Source: Isoetes taiwanensis (lineage: Eukaryota; Streptophyta; Lycopodiopsida; Isoetales; Isoetaceae). Taken from it: 64,000 bases of DNA. Of the stretch, positions 1,785 to 52,035 are shown piece by piece (position 1 is the first letter of the stretch; each line of letters opens with the position of its first letter). Made by a program: the position numbers and the translations under genes. The notes below the pieces were generated by a model that saw nothing but the letters and a program-made list of their open reading frames with translations, ran no database searches and had not been told where the DNA came from. Location: positions 124,001 through 188,000 of the forward strand of contig JAJEKV010000216.1 in NCBI GenBank assembly GCA_021234155.1, in the 5' to 3' direction.

Positions 1785-2460
1785 AAAAACACGCTTTTAG
1801 GGCCATTTTTTGAAAATACAGCATGAGAGTTTCATCGTCGAGAAAGGCAAACCGTAGGGAAAACAGGGGTTGGCTTTTTTCTACGAGGCGAAATGAAAGG
1901 TATGGAAAGTTTAAAAACGCAGTTTTAGGGGTCAAAGGCCTTTGTCGACTCGCACCGAAAAGCGAAATGCAAAGCTTTGGGATTATAGGCCTTTTCACCA
2001 AGGAAGTCGAGAAAGGCAAACACGCGAAACGCAGTTTTTAGATTGGGAAGGTCTTTCTCGACTGCGTGAGTCGAGAAAGGCGCTCAAAGCCGTAAACGCA
2101 GTTTGAGGGGAGCGCCGACCGGGCGAAGTCGAGAAAAGAAGCTCAAAGCTTAAAAACGCAGTTTTAGGGTCGGAAGGCCTTTCTCGACTCGCCGAAAAAA
2201 TGCACGGGTTTAGGGGTAGGAAGGCCTTTCTCTCGCCCAGTCGAGAAAAAGCGGTTCAAAAGCCGTAAACGCGTGTTTAGGGAGGGAAGGCCTTTCTCGA
2301 CTCGCGAGTCGAGAAAGGATTTCAAAAGCCGTAAACATAGGTTTTAGGGGGAAGGCCTTTCTCGACTCGCGAGTTGAGAAAGGCAAACTCAAAGCTTAAA
2401 AATGCAAGTTTGAGGGCCTTTTCACTCATGAAGTCGAAAAAGGCGACTCGAGTAAAAGAA
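1785..2460. repeat. palindromic minisatellite, about 60-70-bp unit
   Basis: About nine imperfect tandem units share the order CGCAGTTTTAGGG, GGAAGGCCTTTCTCGACTCG, CGAGTCGAGAAAGG, CTCAAAGCC. The best units contain CTCGACTCGCGAGTCGAG, a perfect palindrome at 2296-2313 and a near-perfect one at 2360-2377. Each unit could fold into a hairpin. A 20-base A run at about 1770-1789 precedes the array. The open frames over this array on both strands are repeat artefacts. Confidence 0.75.
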
Positions 2461-3044
2461 GTGCAATTTCAAAGCTCAGAGTCAGAAGGTCGAAAATGAA
2501 TAACCTTCAAACATCCTATGTATTTTCTATGAAAAATACCCTCCCCCATAAATTTTCTAACGTATTTTCCATGAAAATAGCCCCTCCCATGTATTATCTA
2601 ATGGACACATATCCAATGGACCCTCCCCTTTCTAATGGACCATACCATATAGCTATATGAAGAGGGGACCATTGGGCTCACATTTAGCTATGTAAAGAGT
2701 AATGCCTAATGCACATGTAAATAGCAACATATGCACCTATAATGCACATGATAACCTCACGAGAACCTATTAGACCTATGCATTAAATCTATTAATATGC
2801 ATCAGACCTATATATTAATATGTACTTGTCCCGATTTTGTGTCTTGAACCTTCAAAATGGATTAAAAAAGGTGTAAATTATATCATGATCTTCGCAAAGT
2901 TAAATTTTTACCTTAGAATAAGAATATATGCCTAGAAAACGTGCACCATGGCAACGTAATGTTTAACGATGTGAACATAGTAGCACACACATGAAAAAAG
3001 GAAATTGGGGACACGCCAAAATATAATCCTATATTATTAGCATT

Positions 3045-3215
3045 TATTTTACACTTTCTTTTCAACGTATTATTTTACCCTTTTTTTTTTCTAATACCAG
3101 CCTTTTTTTTCCCGCCTTATGCTTGAATTTTAAAATCATTTATTTTACACTTTCTTTTTCAACGTATTATTTTACCCCTTTTTTTCTAATACCCGCCTTT
3201 TTTCCATACATGGTT
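3045..3215. repeat. tandem duplication of about 91 bp
   Basis: A T-rich segment beginning CATTTATTTTACACTTTCTT and continuing with CAACGTATTATTTTACCC and TCTAATACC occurs twice in a row (about 3045-3120 and 3137-3212). The differences are only in T-run lengths and a few bases, so this is a recent local duplication inside the element. Confidence 0.75.
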
Positions 3216-3254
3216 GAATTTTTAAACTTTGGTACATACCTTTGAGACGTAAGT

Positions 3255-4400
3255 TCCTTTGTACCACTTGGAAGAAGCTCCCCAACGCCATAGCTCCCAC
3301 CGCTTGCTAATCAATTCTCGGCAAGATGGCAGCATTTGCCTCCTCCAAGGTTTGCATAGGTCGGGTCATGCCTCATTTCTACAAGCGAAGAGATTCCTTG
3401 ATCCTCAAACCGTGCTATGGAACCAAGGAACACGCCAACCAGATTTAAGCGACGGATTTCAAGGTGTTCTGGCACCTGACCGCCGCCATAGCCGCAGGTC
3501 GAGGTAAGATCTTGGATTAATAAGGGTAAGAAAGAAGCCGCTTGGAATCCGAATCCCTTAATCATTTCTCATCGAACTGACCCCTTAATCTGCTTCTTTG
3601 GAAGAGGGCTCGACACGCCCACAAACACGTTAGGGGATTTTGAGAGGCTCGTATTAACAACAAACAAGAGGGCGATTCTTTAAAGAGCACTTCAAAGGGA
3701 GGGTCGGAATAAGAAGGCCGGAATGGTGGGGTTCGGGCCAAACGACTATTCTCGGCTGGCCTTTCCTTGTTTGGACTCTTGCTCAGCATTCCCCAACCGC
3801 CTTGCGTGTTACGGCCCATCGCCACTCCTTAATCGCCCACGCTCTTCTCAAAGTTAAGAAGGAAAATAAATAAGCTGGAAACCCAACCCGAATTTGCTTC
3901 GCAATGAAGGGGAATCAGACGAAGAAGAACAAAAGAAAGAAGTACAATAGATAGGAAGGCACCGCAAAGACACACGCTTTGCCCTTGGCCCTCACCCAAC
4001 TACAAAAACAAAGTGCATTTTTCAAGAGCTGCCTGAGTAGACCTATAAGGCAAAATAAACCGAGCTTCATTACGATAGAGCATTCTCGCGATGCATTGGC
4101 GGGAAGAGAGCCTGTGGTAATGTGGCGGCCAAGCAAGGGGTGCACAACGGGCGAAAATCACCGATGCGAGATCCTTCATTGTCCAAAATGGGAGCATCTT
4201 TCGCCTCAATCAATGCACATGCCATCCTATAATTCCCTCACTTCCATTTCTCGGAATGGATTGCGCCCGCCAACATCGCCGCTCTTGTCTCACGGAGCAT
4301 GGCTCCAAGGTCGTCCTTGTGGTTGGATCCGTGTCCCGGCCCTCCGAATGCCCAGCAGATTATGCACAAGGAGTTAATTAATCCGGCGAAGGGCTCCCAC
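3255..4400 (+). pseudogene. decayed gene-like segment inside the TIR element, unrecognised
   Basis: This stretch is GC-richer than its surroundings. On the plus strand it shows a succession of protein-like peptides in shifting frames: around 3325 (AFASSKVCIGRVMPHFYKR), around 3620-3800 (RAILxRAL, MVGFGPNDYSRLAFP), and around 4190-4310 (NAHAIL, EWIAPANIAALVSRSMAPRS). No frame stays open for more than about 130 codons, and stops and frameshifts separate the pieces. This is what a captured and decayed gene fragment looks like, and its position inside a non-autonomous TIR element supports capture. I do not recognise the source gene. Chance coding-like peptides remain possible. Confidence 0.3.
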
Positions 4401-41717: not shown

Positions 41718-42601
41718 CATTGTTTATGTTTTCCCTTTGACAAACTTTGGCTTTGTCTTCATCAACTTAAACAACTTTTTAGTTGCCAAATTCTCACGGT
41801 CTCCTATGGTTTTTGTTCATTGGCAGTTATTTTGATCAGGTGGTCATAATCAGAGAGGGCATTTTGATTCAGGTGGTCACAAGGTGTCACGATCTAAAAG
41901 ATATTCCTTGGATGGAGAATAACGCTGTGTCCTCTGTTTTCCTGTCTGCCTCTATTACGACAAATTCCATAGCAGATATTACTTTGGTGGACTTATTAGT
42001 CAGCTAAATTCTTCAGAGCCATAGTATTGAAAATAGTATAAATTTATCAATAATAGTCATGATTTACACAAGTCTCCTGTAACTTGGTATGCTACATTTG
42101 AGATTCCCTTGCATTTTGGAAAACCCAGCATATTTGTGTCTTCCATAAGTCATGATTGCGATAACAAAAAATGCGTTTCCTTACAAAATCCAAATAGGTC
42201 CATCCTTATTTTCCACCATCTGTTTTCACATCCTTCACATCATGCTCCTGTAACTTATCAATTGACATCGTATACTAAAAACATGCTTCACATCCTTCTC
42301 TTGTATTGACATCATATACTAAAACAATGTGATCTAAGATTTGAAAAGGCAGGAGACAGAGATAGTACCCTAGGTATAACTAAATCCGATCTAAGATTTG
42401 AAAAGGCAGAAGACAGAGGTAGTACCCTAGGTGTAAATAAATGCGGTGCGAGCTTGCATAAGATGTGAAACCGAGTGTGACAAGGTTGAAGTTTGTTGAT
42501 TGGATCTCAAAACATTTTTCATTGTTACCCAGTGATAAGCTCAAGGTAAAGATATCAAAGGGCAAGCCCGGGGCTTCAAAGCCCAAGCCCAAGAAATCCA
42601 A
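41718..42601. other. intergenic flank of the 9.4-kb element, with a 57-bp tandem duplication
   Basis: A 57-bp unit beginning GATCTAAGATTTGAAAAGGC and ending near CCCTAGGTATAACTAAAT is present twice in tandem (42,331-42,387 and 42,388-42,442) with few changes. The last four bases, CCAA (42,598-42,601), are the left TSD of the element that starts at 42,602. Confidence 0.6.
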
Positions 42602-42631
42602 AACAAGGTTTAAAATGAAACGCACTTATTT
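42602..42631 (+). repeat. left TIR of the 9.43-kb element
   Basis: It reads AACAAGGTTTAAAATG then AAACGCACTTATTT. The reverse complement of 52,006-52,035 is identical except for A instead of G at position 6. The following bases add AAGAAGTGCGTTT, so AAACGCACTT and AAGTGCGTTT form a perfect 10-bp-stem hairpin at the end. The right end keeps only a degenerate version (AACGCGACTT). Confidence 0.85.
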
Positions 42632-44069
42632 AAGAAGTGCGTTTGAAAGATTCCTTTATAAAAATTGAAAACTTAAAAAAAACACACAAAATAGGGAGCA
42701 AAATAGATTGTTGAGCAATTAGCATTCGGGATACCCCCAAAAAAGCAACATTTTTGAAGCCTTTTCATTTTTAAAAGAGGGCAAAAAAAAAAAAAAAATG
42801 CTTGTTTTGAGGAGAGAGACATTAATGTTGATAACTCAGTAAGTATTTATTGTTAAAAACGTAAGGAAATATAGATTGTTTTTGCAAGCTTAACACTAGA
42901 GTTGTCTCAGGGACCTGTTTGGGTTCATCAACCCGTATGGGTCCCTCAATCCCTTCTCCATATTAGGGACTAGTTCTTCATGATACTTATGAGATTTTAA
43001 ATATGAACACCTGAATTGTAAGATTAACTCGAAGTTGTACCACCATATTCAATGGCAAAATAAAATTCTTTCACGAAGTTTTGCTGTCAATCGCACCTTG
43101 AAATACACTCAATTCAATGGTTTCGATGATATGATATAATCTCATGACACTCGGCATGGAATACAAATTTCAAGATAACATTAATTTTCTATGAAGGTAG
43201 CCTACAAATGCTACTCATTTTTCAAATTTCATGTGATTTCATAAAAATTTGATGTATCAATGAGCAAATCATAATTTCAATCCTTGAGAGACCCAGTCAG
43301 GTCCCTAAGGAATTTCTGAAAAACAGACATCCAGGAACCATTTCATATCCATGATATTTGAAATAGAATAAGAATGTGAAGGTACTATTATTTTTCAATA
43401 GAAATAGATACTAAGTACTACACGTCTTGCTAAATGGATTTCATTTTTTCAAAAAGTGGAGTAGTACTATGAATTTTCAAAAATTTGACCCTTGGGGGAC
43501 CTAACTGGGTCCATAAAGAATTTCTGAACTTCAAACTTTTAGGAATTATTTCTCGGAAATTCTACCATAGATTTTCCTAATTCTTCTTGCGATAGATTTG
43601 TCATATCATGATTTACAAGATGGAAGAATTAGAATTCCTAGGAAAAATCATATTTGCAAAATAATGTGAGAAATGTTAAAGACTTTGAGAATAAACTTGA
43701 CCCCTTTGCATTCGGCTCCACATTATGTTTGGTAATAGAAGCTTTCTATATTTTTCATAAATTTTTCCTTATATGTACACTCATGGAGGACAACATATTG
43801 TGAGTATGTAGACAAATTCTTTATTTCGGAGCTATAATAGAATTTCAAAAAAAGTGTACGAATGAACCCATTTGGGTTCATCAAGGGACAATACTAAAAA
43901 AAGTCAAACATTGGAAAGACAAAGAGTGTGAAATCCTCGAGCAAGAAAGAGTTGTTTCAATAAAGCATTGTTAAAGAGACAAAGCTTTTCGGTTTAAAAT
44001 CTTCATCAAAATAAATTATAATAATACTTAGCACATAGTTTACAATGGAAGTAGTTAAGAAGTTTGTCT
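42632..44069. other. non-coding left arm with recurring GGGACC/GGGTCC palindromic motifs
   Basis: AT-rich with no gene. A motif GGGACC-N4-5-GGGT(T/C)C recurs near 42,911-42,928, 43,294-43,311 (opposite orientation, GACCCAGTCAGGTCCC), 43,495-43,510 (GGACCTAACTGGGTCC) and, degenerate, 43,865-43,884 (ATGAACCCATTTGGGTTCAT). Two copies are followed by the same AAGAATTTCTGAA-like sequence (43,312-43,326 and 43,513-43,527), so they arose by duplication of a larger unit. Confidence 0.6.
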
Positions 44070-47000
44070 GTATAAATTTATACGAGAGGTGGGAGAGGTG
44101 GCTCTTCCCAGTCCACAGGACTCTCGTTCCCCTTAGGATCTGGCTCTTGCGAGCTTACAACAGCAGAGATGCCTCCTTTCGATTCGACCTCCATCGGCAT
44201 GGCGGTTTCTCGCTCGGGCACCACAGGGCTCAAGTCGACAAACTCCACCTCCTCATCTTTTTCTTCCCCGTAAGTGGAGGGTCATTTACGTGTAAAGTGC
44301 CCTTAGCATCGGCCTGCACCGTTCTTCGCCCTCCTTCCGTTTTCATCGGGGAAAGGATTCACAAGAGCTTATCCTGGTCCTGATGAAACTTACTTTATCT
44401 GGGTCTATGTCGACTGAGACGACATTGCGCCCCTGCTTAAGGGCGCAAACTGCTGTGGTGCCTCGATCCGAAAAGGCATCTAAGATCCGATCTCCGTGGA
44501 GAAAACCATCAGATCAAATTATTAATAAGATTTGTGGTTTCGGATAATGGGACACACCGCCTTTATCATTTGTGGGTCTCTTAATTTCTGCAACGTACCG
44601 GAACCGAAATGCATTGCGGGGAGGAGTCTTCTCATTACTCAGGTGTTAAAATGAATCATGGTTTTTGGTGTCCGCTACCAGAAAACCTATATGAAAATGC
44701 TCAAAGCTTGACTCACTTCAGCGCGGACCACCACCATGACCCTTGACGTTCGTTTTAAGCCTGCCGCCAAGCAAAGCGGTAAACAATTAGAAATTAGTAA
44801 AAAGAAAACAAGGAAAATAAGTTAGCCCAGTAGTGTGGCGGTATAAACTTATACCACGGTTGCCTTGCTGTATAAATTTATACCACGGCGGCAAGCCGTA
44901 TAAATTTATACAGACATTGCCTTGTCTGGTATAAATTTATACCACGGTTGTTCCAGCCTTTAAAATTTAAACCTTAAGACAGATGTGGTATAAATTTATA
45001 CCGTGGAGTTACCGAAAAAAAGCGTTAATTGTGAAGCTTACCAAACGCAGTTGATTTTGGCCCGCCATTCATGAGGCCTCCCATAGGTTTAAGCACCGGC
45101 ATCGTCTGCAGGTCGGAATGAAAAATGATGACCCTCCGGTTTTTCGGATGTCGTGGACTTCTTTTAGGCCATCCAGAAAGACAGGACTTGCACGCGGAGT
45201 GAAAGCCTCCTCATCAAAAGCGCTATCCTTTATTTTAAATCCATAAGGAATATCTGCAATGCATAATGTAAAATTTTGCTTGTCTAAAAGAGTCCCCAGC
45301 CTTGTACAATCACCCTCAACAACCCTGTACTGGACGTCCTGACCAAATGTAGTAAACCTCTCATATGTACAGTCAAAACTGGTAGTGGCGACCTCTTTAC
45401 CCTGTTCAATTGCCTTAAGCCTTTGCCTCTCTTCCTTGGCCCTACGAACCAGGTTTAAAAATCCAGTTGGTAGCCCCTTCTTCTTGTTCTGTAAGAGTAA
45501 TGTGAGACAAAGGCACAAACACATAACATATTTTTTGCAAAACTTACCCAAATTCAAAGTTAACAAGTGTGCTCTTTGATGATCTTCTGTGGTGCAACTT
45601 GGGTACAAAAGTTTGCACTCCTCCCAGTCTTCTAGGTTGAGCTGCTTCATTAACTCGGCCTGGCAAGTGACAATGTCTTTCTGACTGCAAAGGGTTTTAT
45701 ATTGTAAGACAAAAAAAGGTAGAAAAAAACATGGCATAGCAAGTGAGGCTTACGTCTTAGCTTCCTTGGCCATCTCGTCTAATGTGAATTCTTTGGCAAC
45801 TACTTTTCCAACAAAGTAACAAATTCTTTGCTTTTGAGACCATGAATAAAGGCCCGTGGTACAATGCTCATATTTTTTGTTTTGATTCACCACCTTTCTT
45901 TGGTTTCTTTCTGCGTTGCTAGCTTGTTCTTTAAGCTCCCCATCTTGAACATACAAAAATTCTCTCTTGCAGATCCCACACCGTAAATGGTCAAGCGAAG
46001 TTTAGTGTTGAATGGCGAAGAAGATGGGCACGGCGACTGTGCGGTATAAATTTATATCACATGACCGCACTGCGGTATAAATTTATACGCGTGCACGGGT
46101 CTCGATATAAATTTATATCATGACGCACCGGATAAATTTATCTGGCGCCGGGCACCGCAGATAAATTTATACCGTCACCCGGCTATTACAAACTTCTAAC
46201 CATGCTAAACATACTACAAAAGATTGAATTGAAGCTTTTACTTACTTGACCATCTCTGAAAGCGAGCTGAAAGTAGTTATCGTATTGTTTTACAGCCATA
46301 ATGGGTTTCTTATCCGAATCATAACTGAGGCAGAACTCTGTCACACATGCTTCTCGAAGCTTTTGAAGCTTGTTCTTTTGTTTTTTGAAGTCGTCTCCAT
46401 GCACTTGTTTGAAATCCACGTACTCTGTTGCATGAAGCTTAATCTTGTCTATTAGGCTCATCTTTAGTCTGAAGTCATTGTCTAGATTGTGACTCACGGC
46501 AATGACTTTTGCCTCTTCGTCTGTCACCCCCACATAGATATGTGCTTCCACACTCTTCCAGACTTCATTACGGCTTTCTTCTTTTGATAGTTCTTTTCTT
46601 GCTTTATAACTATGTGTGCCTCCAAGAACATAATAGGTGTAATCTTCAAAATCGCCTTTTTGTAGTCTTTTAATTGGTTGCACCGACTTGTCTACCATCA
46701 CAACTAGTGGCTTACACATGGGCATGAGGATTCCTTCTCATTCTTTGCTTAAGGATAGCCACATGTGCCGCTGCACAACTTTCGGACTGAAGCACTCGAC
46801 CCCATCTTCATTTTTGGTGGCCTCTTAATAGTGCTTTTAGTGTCAAAGAAATGGTCTCGCTTGAGCGGTTTGGTTTCATTAACCCGCTTGAGAATAGCAT
46901 TCGACTTATCTGCAGGGCTTCACAACGATATACGCTCCGGGAGCCTTCAAGAGCCTTCGACTCCTCTATAGTCAAGGACTTTGTGGTTCTAGACTTTTTC

Positions 47001-48483
47001 TTGGTAGGAGGCTGTGTATCTACTACCAGGGAATGCTTCCTACCCTTTCCCTTTGTGACGACTGGTTCCTCCTCTTCCTCTTCCTCTAATACTTCCTCCC
47101 TATCTTCCTCTTCGATATTACGGGGGTACCATAGGCCCTTGACCAACACGTTTTCTTCGCACAGCACTACTGACATCAAAATTTCTACTAGGTCCTGTAA
47201 TGCAGAATTAAGTTAGAGAATGACGGTATAAATTTATACGGAAAGCAACTAAGAATAACTTACAAAGCCGTTCTTGTAATTGTCCGCAATGTAATCATAG
47301 ACGTCTTTGGGCTTGCACATGCTTATTCTAAGCATTTTACTATTGAGAACATAGTAAACCACCCCCTTGTCATGGTTGCACTGCATCAAAACTTCATCAT
47401 CGTTCTCTGTAGTAACAAGGCTTATCATTTCACCAGCAGGGTAATAATCATCAGCCTTGAACTTGCCCTTCCCTGATTGGTGGCACAAGTAAAGGTACAC
47501 CTCAGTGGGTTTGCTCTCTCTTGCCCCCGTGGACGCGTGCAGTGTCCGTTCGTAAGTTTATAAGTCTGTGGCTCTGGTGGTGCAGCCTTTGATGGTTGGC
47601 CTTTGTGTACAAACTTGATTTTAGGGCTGGAAAAAGCGTAAAAAAACCATTTTAAAACAAGAAACAGAACCTTTTTTGACTTTTTGAAACAAAAAACAAA
47701 AAAAAAGAGGTCGAAAGGGCATAAAATCGACACTAAATTAACGCTTTATTTGTGTCAATTAAGCTTAAAACACAACAATATTACTAAAATATTAAGGTTC
47801 GGGACCACTCTTTAAGCACTAGACACCAAGATTCCAAAATGGTTCTGGAACGGTATAAATTTATACCGCTCGAACACAGTCGGTATAAATTTATATTCGA
47901 AATGGTTCTCGGCGGTATAAATTTATACCCGTTAACCATTTCGATAGATAAATTTATATCTTAAAGTACTGAGCGTATAAATTTATACCGCTCGTGCTCG
48001 AGCGGTATAAATTTGTACCGCTACAGAACCATTTCGGTATAAATTTATACCGACTGTGCTTAAACTCTAACAGATTATAACAAAAGAGAAACTAAAACAG
48101 TACGGATAGTAGACTTACGTGGCCATGGTCGTATGGGTTCGCTTATAGCTGTTCGGAGAAGCAATTTGGAAGGGGTATATAAGGCGCATTCGAGCCTTGG
48201 ACTCCTAGCGGTATGTAGAAAAAGGGTGGGGTGGCCACGGGCTTAAGTACCTCTGCTAGGTGTGTTTCAGATAGCACTTCTATAAAGTTTTCAATACAAC
48301 CTATGCGTGAGTTTTCAGTATAAATTTATACCGCTTTCTTTTCTCTGTTGCCCTCCTCAGTATAAATTTATACCAACTTCAGATAAATTTATACTGCCGC
48401 TTCAAGTTTGCCTTCTCAGATAAATTTATACCATCCCTGTGTAAACTTTTACCGTCGCTCTTCCGGTCAGTATAAATTTATAC
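44070..48483. repeat. dispersed palindrome array, core TATAAATTTATA (about 24 copies)
   Basis: The best copies are GGTATAAATTTATACC, a perfect 16-bp palindrome; others vary only at the edges. Approximate positions: 44,070; 44,840; 44,870; 44,899; 44,929; 44,988; 46,043; 46,073; 46,104; 46,131; 46,158; 47,224; 47,850; 47,880; 47,914; 47,946; 47,969; 48,003; 48,036; 48,318; 48,358; 48,383; 48,419; 48,468. Spacing inside clusters is about 15-35 bp with unrelated sequence between copies, so this is not a simple tandem repeat. Every copy lies in non-coding DNA of the minus-strand gene (promoter, intron 1, later introns) or overlaps its stop codon. None was found in the plus-strand gene. The pattern is expected for a protein-binding or DNA-modification site array. 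Confidence 0.85.
44078..48126 (-). pseudogene. ParB-like domain plus N4/N6-type DNA methyltransferase, multi-exon, damaged
   Basis: Start ATG at 48,126. Exon 1 is only ATGGCCAC (48,126-48,119). Intron 1 (48,118-47,627, GTAAGT...TTCCAG) joins it to give MATPKIKFVHKGQPSKAAPP. Next come GKFKADDYYPAGEMIS, an acidic run, a likely nuclear signal PPTKKKSR (about 47,000), and the ParB-like part, SSGLMKPN then YYVLGGTHSYKARKEL (about 46,630), resembling the ParB G.HR..A box. Introns follow at about 47,263-47,197, 46,245-45,970, 45,550-45,490 and 45,043-44,762. The methyltransferase has LCIADIPYGFKI (45,255, motif IV; DPPY altered to DIPY), FHFGSGTL-like sequence, then GDRILDAFSDRGTTAVCALK and QGRNVVSVDIDPD (44,485-44,395, FxGxGTT AdoMet motif altered to FSDRGTT). 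This IV-then-I order is the beta class. The acidic tail ends at TAA 44,080-44,078. Frameshifts (about 47,530, 46,800, 45,150) and in-frame TAGs (about 44,700) indicate decay. ParB-methyltransferase fusions are otherwise familiar from phages and bacteria. Confidence 0.75.
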
Positions 48484-48567
48484 AAAGGTGGACGCTAACT
48501 TTCTCGAGTATGGCTCGAGAAAAAGAACTCTGAGCCTCCAACTCACATTCGCTCGGGCTTCCTCCCA
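48127..48567. promoter_or_regulatory. divergent promoter region with five palindrome copies
   Basis: This 441-bp gap separates the two divergent starts. On the plus strand GGGGTATATAAGGCGC (about 48,172-48,187) contains a good TATA box pointing towards the DUF7869 gene. Five TATAAATTTATA-type copies lie between 48,318 and 48,483, close to the plus-strand gene's start and about 190-360 bp upstream of the methyltransferase start. They could themselves act as TATA-like elements or as operator sites for an element-encoded protein. Shared control of both genes is an inference. Confidence 0.5.
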
Positions 48568-51561
48568 ATGACATTCACACCTCCTCGGTGACCGACAGGA
48601 AGTAGCTTTGAAAATTCTGCGTCCGGACATTCAAACCCCACCTCTTGTTGAGTTTACTCCGGCCACGACCACCTCGGCTTCCACCACCAGTTCAATTTAC
48701 TCCACCACACCCAGCTCCTGAACGTCGTTTGCCCCCACCAATGCGTTTTACTCCACCACAGGCTAGAGAGGTCAGACTACCTACCCCACTTCATTTTAGC
48801 TCGTCGCCCATAGTCCACCGTAGGCTAAATCCCCGGAGGCAAATCACGCCAACTCCATCCATATCGCTAAATGGTACTACAACAAGTGGGAGCAGTCAGC
48901 GACACGCAACTCCTGTGTTCTACGACACGTCAGGAGCTGGTCAACTCCGTCACCAACCTCGATTACTTTTTCCCAGAGACAGGGAAAGCACCTCCCCCAA
49001 GGACTTGCCCACACCAAACCTCTCAGCGTCTACAAGTACACCTCATGTTGATCTCTCAGACGAAGAAACACCTCATGTTGATGTCTCAGACGAGGACCTA
49101 CCAAAGCCACAAGACTCCATGTTCGAATTCAAAGCCCCTGCAAGTAAGAATCTTAAGCGTAACTTACACAAGAAAGCATGTACAACCGTTAGAAGAAAGA
49201 AACTCATGGACGAGGCTCACTTGCGGGCAACACATACAAAGCACTGTTGTTCTCAACGTTGTTTGCTTAAGATTGGACTAAAGGAATTGAGGTTGATTCG
49301 TGATAGTTAGTTCAATGACTCGCTAGACCAAAGGGGCTACTTAGCCTTCAATATTAGGCGGATGATGGTGAGAAGTTTACTTACACAAACTGGTGGCCAC
49401 ACCGTCTCATCAAACGGCCTTCAAATTGATTCATGCTTTAGGCGGGGCGACTTGACCGCTTTGAAGAAAAGGCTTGACAAGAATCCGTGCATCAATGACT
49501 ATCGCCATTCGGGAGGCATAACCGTAATTCATGCCCTTCAATGTGTTTCCGGATGGAAGGTTTCTTTAAGGAGTCTTGTGAGAAACTCCCAAACAGCCCT
49601 ATGTACCACTTGAGTGACAATTTCACTAAAACAAGAAGTCTCGATAATTATAAGGAGATGTGTGTTGATTTGGAGAACGCTTTGTGCTACTCTTACTTTC
49701 TTTACTTTATGTGCTCTGGAAAAAGAGTTTTTTCTCGTGTCCATTCCTAGAAAGCATAGGATGTCTGTTTGTGCTATATGCTCAATTAAAAGCTCGAGAG
49801 ACAAAATGCAAGGACACTTCACACTAAAAGTAAGCATCCGGGGCGTGTTCTTGCCTAGTTCTACTTAAAAGTAGGTTCTTTCCTAAACATATTTTCATTT
49901 CAGATGCATTGAAGGAGAAACTGAACAAGCACAGAGAACAACAATCTTTGGAAAGGAGAAAATTGACAAAACATAGGAAGAAAGCACTGGAACAACCACT
50001 CAACTACATATGGGTTGTTATTGATGGAATGGACCGGAAGAAGACCACCCTACCACATTTTGTCAATGTGCCTAAGGATCTTCTTGAAGAAGATTTCATA
50101 CATCCGCATGTTGTTGGTGCTATGGTATTTAATGGAAAACTATCTTGCAAGGCATTTTCTGAATTATCCAAACATTCAAATCTCACTATCACAATATTGA
50201 ATAAGCTTCTTTCCAATCTAGAACATATACCACCAGGTTGTATCTTGACTAGACAACACGACAAGGGAAAATAAGAATCAGGCGTTGTTTGCTTTCTGTG
50301 CTATGCTAGTAGAGAAACAAATCTTCAAGAAGGTGAAGATTGGTTTCCTGCTTGTTGGTCATACACACGATCAAATTGATCGGATGTTATGAGGTTCTCT
50401 AAACGTCTTGCTTTCGAAAAAAGCGCTCGACCTACCAAGCAATGATTGAGGTTATCCAAGATTCCTACAATCCTCGTCCGGACATCGAGTTATTGGAAGA
50501 AACTTATGATTTCAAAGAATGGATTTTTGGAGAGATCAACTGGGTCACCGTGCTATTGAGCCCTTGAGAAACATTACAATTCAACATCGGATCAAAATTT
50601 CACTTGTAGATGGCAAGGCCATCTTACAAGGAAAGAAATATATGCCACATCCTTGCGATTGGCGCCAAACCCGGTATTCAATTCATTCGCACCATCCCCA
50701 ATACTAGTTCCATGCTCTCTGCAGAGAAGCAAACGCCTCTAAAAAGCTTGAAAGAAATCACAAAGAGTAAAAAGGAGGGAAGAGCATTTGACTCAAACAA
50801 ATCATTGGATTATATTGAGACAAGTATTGATCGTGCTCTAACCACTTTGGGGAGGCAGATGCTTTATGGTGGCCTCAGTTTTTTCTCGACAACGTGACAT
50901 GTTGCAAGCTTCATTGCAAGGTCGAAGAATAGTTACATTCAACCTGGCCATCTAGGCAAACTCTCCCATGCAAGTTGAGAATCAAGAGGAACAAGTAGAG
51001 ATATTGGCTAGCTCGGATGAAGATGCAGAGTCATGTACAGCGGCCCCCAGCCCCACGGCACAACAAGTTGCTCGAGTATCCGGGTTCGAGTCTCGGAGAT
51101 TGAAAGGAATGCTCATAGCTGTCGGTGATAATGATGAATCACGGGAAGCCATTCGGCTAGCTAAAATCTTGGAGGTAACAAAGAGGATGGAATTCCCACT
51201 CAACTAAAAGTGCACTGGATGAGAACGAATGCCGCCAATGCTTTCAGTGGGAGTTATACTTTGGAGATGGTAAAAACAGGAGTGGGAAAGAGAGCAAAGT
51301 CCAAAGCAAGCACTGCTGTCATAGATCTAGCTGAAGTAAAGGTTCTTGCATATGACTTTGTTCGATTCTTTGCTAATAAGTTACGATGGTCACTCAAACT
51401 TTAATAAGGTCGGCATGTGGATTAGACAAACAACCTAGAAAGGTGGCAAAAAAAGATGATGATGAAGACTCACTTGTAGAAAGTGAGGAAGAAGATCGTT
51501 CGAGTACATCCAAGTCTTTGAGAGTGAAGGCGAGGATGAAGGCTCAAGTGATCGAGATTAA
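48568..51561 (+). pseudogene. DUF7869-like protein, candidate transposition protein, damaged
   Basis: The start is inferred at ATG 48,568 (MTFTPPR), because the N-terminal region repeats a P-x-FTPP motif (PVQFTPP, PMRFTPPQ, PTPLHFSS) before and after an early frameshift. A basic/cysteine section CCSQRCLLKIG follows (49,250), then an in-frame TAG at 49,308 with clear continuation (FNDSLDQRGYLAFNIRRMM). A frameshift lies near 49,550. FLVSIPRKHRMSVCAIC (about 49,735-49,785) and a GT-AG intron (about 49,830-49,903) come next. The conserved core is YIWVVIDGMDRKKTTLPH, LDNTTRENKNQALFAFCAML (about 50,247-50,306), IGFLLVGHTHDQIDRM (about 50,339-50,386), then KISLVDGKAILQGKKYM. GHTH(E/D)xxDQ is the signature of DUF7869 proteins, a poorly characterised, often repeated family. 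It ends in an acidic tail at TAA 51,559. At least four frameshifts are present. A recombinase role is inferred from context only. Confidence 0.72.
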
Positions 51562-52005
51562 ATGAGTCGGAGGATGAGATGCATCCTGATCTTCTGCGCA
51601 AAATGTAAGTTTGTCCGATGACTCGAACATGTAAAGAACAGAAAGTGCAGGTGATGATTGTTTGTCAAAATGTCCTATATTTTTGACAATTTTGTTCATA
51701 ATTTTGTACAATTTTCACAACCTTGAATATATCACTTCTTTGTCACTCTACTACCCTTGCTATTTTTTTTTTATTGCCCTTTTTTGTTACACTTTATAAA
51801 AGTAACTATTTTTTGTTCTAGTTTAGGAGGATGAAAATTGCTATTTAAAATTTTTGCACGAAAGTTATGTTCAATCAACCCCTCAAAAATGGTACCTAAA
51901 TTACTTAAATTGTCACACCTGTCACAAAAAAATCTTAAAAATGGACTTTTTTTAAAGGGAATTTTAGGAATCTTTCAAAGATTCCTTTCAAGTCGCGTTC
52001 CAAAC
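51562..52005. other. non-coding right arm of the 9.43-kb element
   Basis: AT-rich, with no gene. GAATCTTTCAAAGATTCCTT near 51,968-51,987 is palindromic (GAATCTTTCAAAGATTC) and sits just inside the TIR. The left end has the related GAAAGATTCCTTT at 42,646-42,658. These may be subterminal binding sites. Confidence 0.5.
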
Positions 52006-52035
52006 AAATAAGTGCGTTTCATTTTAAACTTTGTT
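52006..52035 (-). repeat. right TIR of the 9.43-kb element
   Basis: The reverse complement starts AACAAAGTTTAAAATG and ends AAACGCACTTATTT, matching 42,602-42,631 at 29 of 30 bases. CCAA follows at 52,036-52,039 (TSD). Confidence 0.85.

Follow-up and report, generated by a model that had tools for sequence, protein, structure and literature searches.

The element closest to the one described here is Sola1-1_Ec32 of the brown alga Ectocarpus, in which a transposase gene lies opposite a gene encoding a ParB-like domain together with an N4-cytosine/N6-adenine (N4C/N6A) DNA methyltransferase domain (PMC12477816). According to the available part of that source, transposons of green and red algae carry similar ParB-methyltransferase-like proteins (Iyer 2011; Petroll 2025, per PMC12477816), and the ParB-methyltransferases of eukaryotic transposons have been proposed to bind and mark their own element, a proposal given there without a candidate binding site. 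A Sola1 element is listed for Physcomitrella, like Isoetes a land plant, in the accessible text of a second source (PMC9033089), which makes no statement on a methyltransferase in it. We analysed a stretch of 64,000 nucleotides from the lycopod Isoetes taiwanensis (assembly GCA_021234155.1, contig JAJEKV010000216.1, positions 124,001 to 188,000 of the forward strand), referred to as the window, which holds a transposon at positions 42,602 to 52,035. The transposon carries a DUF7869 gene, an opposite-strand ParB-methyltransferase gene, and arrays of a short palindrome. By its layout and the length of its target-site duplication, the element is most likely a plant variant of the published kind, Sola1-like in character; what is new are the palindrome arrays, which provide a candidate binding site.

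The element was bounded by two 30-bp inverted repeats identical at 29 of 30 positions, just outside which stood a perfect CCAA direct repeat, both as read in the initial annotation of the window. The last 476 bases of the element were searched against the host genome (1,658,258,908 bases in 1110 contigs) and gave 1197 first-look candidates, of which 40 were scored, one being the window itself; the other 39 matched at 95-96% identity. The final base of the query was reached in 39 of the 40 scored matches, and matching ended at 52035 in 29 of the 30 loci that were fetched (window counted). Given this recurrence across the genome, the right-end boundary is not due to chance. Both ends were then surveyed in 25 distinct copies, namely the window, L040, L042, L043, L085, and a further set of 20, among them L041, L084, and L086. 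The two ends could be read in 18 copies, 17 of which had identical 4-bp flanks, not fixed in sequence but A/T-rich; for the other seven (six of the set of 20, plus L040) the left end was not found in the fetched stretch. The 14 complete copies in the set of 20 were 8372 to 8919 bp long. The annotated mobile unit, with its 30-bp ends, its 4-bp duplication, and its own ParB-methyltransferase gene, was therefore borne out by copies in the same genome: it is real, mobile, and from an abundant family, and the window holds one old copy.

Two divergent genes, with exons split by non-coding gaps, were found between the ends. The introns referred to below are an interpretation of the gaps between exon matches and are based on genomic sequence alone. 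Both genes were present on opposite strands in seven of the eight copies read, while L040 matched in its right half only; the pair thus stays together. The plus-strand gene encodes a DUF7869 protein, whose match to PF25273 was 1.5e-28 for the joined window pieces and 7.7e-53 for a 599-aa open frame of L086. Its acidic motifs were conserved, with VIDG-M/I-D in seven of eight copies and both LDNTTRENKN and GHTHDQID in all eight. Because of these motifs and its location within the element, the protein is most likely a DDE/D transposase, and the three acidic motifs may form its catalytic triad. A DUF7869 search of the host genome gave 9903 first-look candidates, and the 150 that were scored were all above the family cut-off, whereas none of 14 control genomes had a match. 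Scans of viral contigs with the DUF7869 core and with the DUF7869 motif pattern, which rely on short shared patterns, found no relatives. The domain of unknown function DUF7869 is thus located within a mobile element whose ends and target-site duplications are defined.

The annotation had also inferred a new transposon superfamily from the gene pair; in that case the DUF7869 protein would be unrelated to Sola1. The mobile unit with this gene pair stood, but the new superfamily is unlikely. In its favor, the DUF7869 protein had no match to any other Pfam transposase family and none among solved structures. Literature searches, outside whose coverage most subscription papers lie, found no paper using the term DUF7869 and, among the listed titles and abstracts, no plant element of this kind. 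Bao and colleagues reportedly described Sola in 2009 with a 4-bp target-site duplication, with which the duplications of the present family agree and which argues against a separate superfamily. Sola1 transposases have a DDD-type catalytic triad. The layout of the Isoetes element is moreover that of Sola1-1_Ec32, and no new superfamily is needed since this element already shows a ParB-methyltransferase gene opposite a transposase gene (PMC12477816). The two were likened by layout and not by transposase sequence, and they differ in size (21.5 kb in the brown alga, about 8.4-8.9 kb in the plant) and in the palindrome arrays, which the available part of PMC12477816 does not mention for Sola1-1_Ec32. 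In the portion of the Repbase rules at hand, superfamilies are defined by the comparison of transposases.

By its sequence, the minus-strand gene encodes a ParB-like domain and, fused to it, a DNA methyltransferase domain of the beta class (N6A/N4C). The beta-class assignment is based on the match to PF01555 (4e-16 for two joined exons of L085) and on the motif order, in which motif IV is located before motif I. The solved chains nearest to the methyltransferase were MboIIA, RsrI, and CcrM. All four aligned members of the ParB-like domain matched the ParB PHROG phrog_1033, the best at 4.6e-6. A structure prediction for the window ParB piece alone had a mean pLDDT (predicted local distance difference test) of 36.4. 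Phage ParB-like proteins and these bacterial methyltransferases thus belong to the same domain families as the accessory protein of the element; unlike in the phage and bacterial proteins, its domains share one intron-bearing eukaryotic gene in a transposon, and its motif IV is DIPYG. A scan of viral contigs with the ParB exon and a scan of prokaryote genomes with the ParB alignment found no relatives, both relying on short shared patterns. In phages, tblastn returned two records for the ParB exon (E 0.4-0.5) and 790 records for the methyltransferase, all below 60% identity, and no ParB annotation adjoined the match in the top methyltransferase record. A virus or provirus was considered as well and rejected, as a Pfam scan of 10 frames gave no match to capsid or viral replication genes.

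The palindrome, with a consensus of about GGTATRAATTYATACC, was unmentioned in the annotation. Exact ATAAATTTAT occurred 22 times inside the window element, compared with 0.02 expected, and all of these sites lay within 44067-48486, distributed over three presumed methyltransferase introns, the 3' end of that gene, and the stretch separating it from the DUF7869 gene. The form GTATRAATTYATAC was found 14 times inside the element and not once in the remaining 54,566 bases of the window; when up to two mismatches were allowed, there were 22 inside and 2 outside. Five further complete copies contained 35 (L041), 26 (L042), 30 (L043), 27 (L084), and 24 (L085) exact sites, and the partial copies L040 and L086 contained 9 and 19. 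In all six complete copies, with 22-35 sites each, the sites were located in introns of the methyltransferase gene or upstream of it; no exact palindrome lay inside the transposase gene, and the last one preceded the transposase frame. Separately, the palindrome copy at 44067-44086 contained the TAA (44078-44080, minus strand) that terminates the last methyltransferase frame. A lone exact ATAAATTTAT outside the element, at 42038 and 564 bp beyond the left end, is probably there by chance.

A diverged family at contig C1034, near 30.72 Mb, carried both genes on opposite strands and had a right end of related sequence. Compared with the window family, its transposase showed 65% identity. For the ParB-containing piece the value was 49% (2e-83), for the motif IV exon it was 61% (1e-59), and for the N-terminal piece 27.5% (3e-12). 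When its 4.6 kb (L087 and L089) was compared with L085 in a nucleotide search at E 1e-5, only two exon pieces were aligned (67% over 421 bases and 80% over 56), and at E 1 nearly all intergenic matches were the palindromes. Nine palindrome sites with at most one mismatch were found in this family, six of them intergenic and three between the ParB exon and the motif IV exon. Five of the nine were GTATGAATTCATAC, in which a matched change had occurred on both arms. A test for symmetric sites in L087 found seven, one being a different palindrome, versus 0.04 in shuffled sequences. That the motif was kept in this one family while the DNA around it diverged is the best evidence for a function of the palindrome. 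An arrayed short symmetric site kept in a diverged family would also allow a direct test of the published self-binding proposal (PMC12477816, as set out in the part available).

These observations lead us to favor, by a modest degree of confidence, a Sola1-like cut-and-paste family in which the DUF7869 protein is the transposase, the ParB part binds the palindromes, and the methyltransferase part marks the element. Bacterial parS sites are palindromic. The ParB part is connected with the palindromes because the sites lie in and beside its gene, because their form is as in parS, and because self-marking has been proposed for such proteins. The DUF7869 protein would act at the 30-bp ends and insert the element through a 4-bp staggered cut, while the ParB part would bind the palindromes in the introns and promoter region of its own gene, and the catalytic part would methylate adenine or N4-cytosine within the element. 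This methylation might in turn control the divergent promoters or counter silencing by the host, which is speculative. If self-marking is true, it would be a route for N6A or N4C marks into plant genomes. A more far-reaching and only tentative reading is that of a land-plant lineage with partition-like self-marking, in which a ParB-methyltransferase and parS-like arrays, kept in families as far apart as about half protein identity, would distinguish the element from host chromatin by N6-methyladenine or N4-methylcytosine (6mA/4mC).

Several results weigh against self-marking through the palindromes. Changes in the palindrome arms of the window family were no more symmetric than predicted from column composition (for example 18 vs 16.5, 16 vs 14.3, and 8 vs 8.0, of 22), and an excess symmetry of the palindrome flanks was tested in this family and not found; the symmetry argument therefore rests on one diverged family. 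Together with a palindrome number that varies by copy and with the regular spacing (99 of 175 distances between neighbouring palindromes in the six complete copies were 28-32 bp), this would suit a functionless minisatellite spread by slippage in the non-coding parts. Such an origin appears improbable, as the spacers in the window differ while the palindrome is kept, and as the motif, with its symmetric sites, persists in the diverged family, where the rest of the non-coding DNA can no longer be aligned. The palindromes could instead serve divergent promoter control, as operators or enhancers recognised by the transposase or by a host factor, with the ParB-methyltransferase acting elsewhere, and the many sites between the two divergent genes are in line with this, as are L064 and L065, which have one 1-mismatch site each 3' of the transposase frame. 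We consider this rather unlikely, since three presumed methyltransferase introns also hold sites, the transposase gene holds no exact one, and the diverged family again has sites following its ParB exon. In addition, the complete copies had about 470-480 bp between the left end and the first palindrome, and 18 of 20 DUF7869 loci (the domain with 1.5 kb on either side) had no site.

The ParB-methyltransferase protein itself supplies further points against self-marking. Pfam scans of the ParB-like piece gave no ParB match, and a profile search of solved structures yielded no ParB. None of the eight copies read was seen with both genes fully open. The textbook form of motif IV is D/N/S-P-P-Y/F/W, from which the DIPYG of all seven exon-bearing copies and of the diverged family departs. 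This departure and the broken window frames would be expected if the methyltransferase had been captured as a passenger, or had lost its catalytic activity, and took no part in transposition. That explanation seems very improbable, however, because DIPYG recurs in every one of these copies and its surroundings, CIADIPYGFKIKD, were unaltered in the diverged family, as expected for a constrained site. The features of the window element are listed in Table 1.

Table 1. Positions of the element's features in the window
Feature	Position	Strand	Basis
Left target-site duplication CCAA	42598-42601		Identical 4-bp flanks in 17/18 two-ended copies
Left 30-bp terminal inverted repeat	42602-42631	+	29/30 identical; 0 or 1 mismatch in 14/20 copies searched
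Nested separate repeat of about 1 kb, high-copy	42894-43891		Edges uncertain by about 10 bp
Palindrome at 3' end of methyltransferase gene	44067-44086		
ParB-methyltransferase gene, exons separated by gaps, frames interrupted here	44078-47652	-	Open reading frames, domain matches, copy comparison
C-terminal methyltransferase exon, motif I LDAFSDRGTTAV (LDAFSGSGTTAV in L085)	44343-44786	-	PF01555 2.1e-5
Palindrome array, presumed intron	44838-45006		
Methyltransferase exon with motif IV DIPYG	45043-45482	-	DIPYG in 7/7 exon-bearing copies and diverged family
Palindrome array, presumed intron	46041-46176		
ParB-like domain (YYVLGGTHSYKARKEL ... DEEAKVIAVSHN)	46396-46737	-	phrog_1033 match
Single palindrome, presumed intron	47223-47242		
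Palindrome array between the two genes	47848-48053		
Palindrome array between the two genes	48315-48486		
DUF7869 gene, presumed transposase, frames broken here	48666-51618	+	Open reading frames, domain match, copy comparison
DUF7869 domain with VIDGMDRKK / LDNTTRENKN / GHTHDQID	50077-50640 (approximate edges)	+	PF25273
Right 30-bp terminal inverted repeat	52006-52035	-	Inverted-repeat match and genome copies ending there
Right target-site duplication CCAA	52036-52039		Read from sequence

The initial description of exactly two divergent spliced genes held for the number of genes and for the layout of exons and gaps, but the frames of the window copy were broken, by a TAG at 49308-49310 and by frame shifts near 49560 and 50250. 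In five copies compared (L041, L042, L043, L084, and L085), differences were clustered at and beside CG/CHG sites: substitutions were 10-11.5% at these sites versus about 4% at other bases, and A/T bases adjoining them differed at 12.7% versus mostly 3-5% farther away. Since cytosine deamination alone would leave the neighbouring A/T bases intact, the pattern probably stems in part from miscalled bases at methylated cytosines, and assembly error of this kind may account for part of the frame breaks, perhaps including some of those in the window. The view that all frame breaks represent decay was set aside given this clustering. The published Isoetes taiwanensis assembly is described, in the text available, as a nanopore assembly of 1.66 Gb in 204 scaffolds and 909 contigs (PMC8566536). 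In the assembly searched here, reading frames within repeats call for caution. Substitutions were fewer towards the ends (0.6% over the right 470 bases, 2.3% over the left 280) than in the gene body (5.2%), the low value at the right end being partly an effect of copy selection because the right end served as the search query.

In L023 (bases 1974-3472), a copy directly abutted part of another ParB-methyltransferase element in reversed orientation; this part was 78% identical to L085 and 73% to the window and had four palindromes of its own. The window copy contained a different insertion. Although its annotated boundaries stood, the length of 9.43 kb did not, because a separate repeat of about 1 kb is nested inside, and the element's own unit is about 8.4 kb. 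L041, L042, and L043 were without this repeat at the corresponding place. It matched at 93-96% in all seven loci of another search, five of which reached its far end, and the genome search with a query containing this repeat yielded 1587 first-look candidates.

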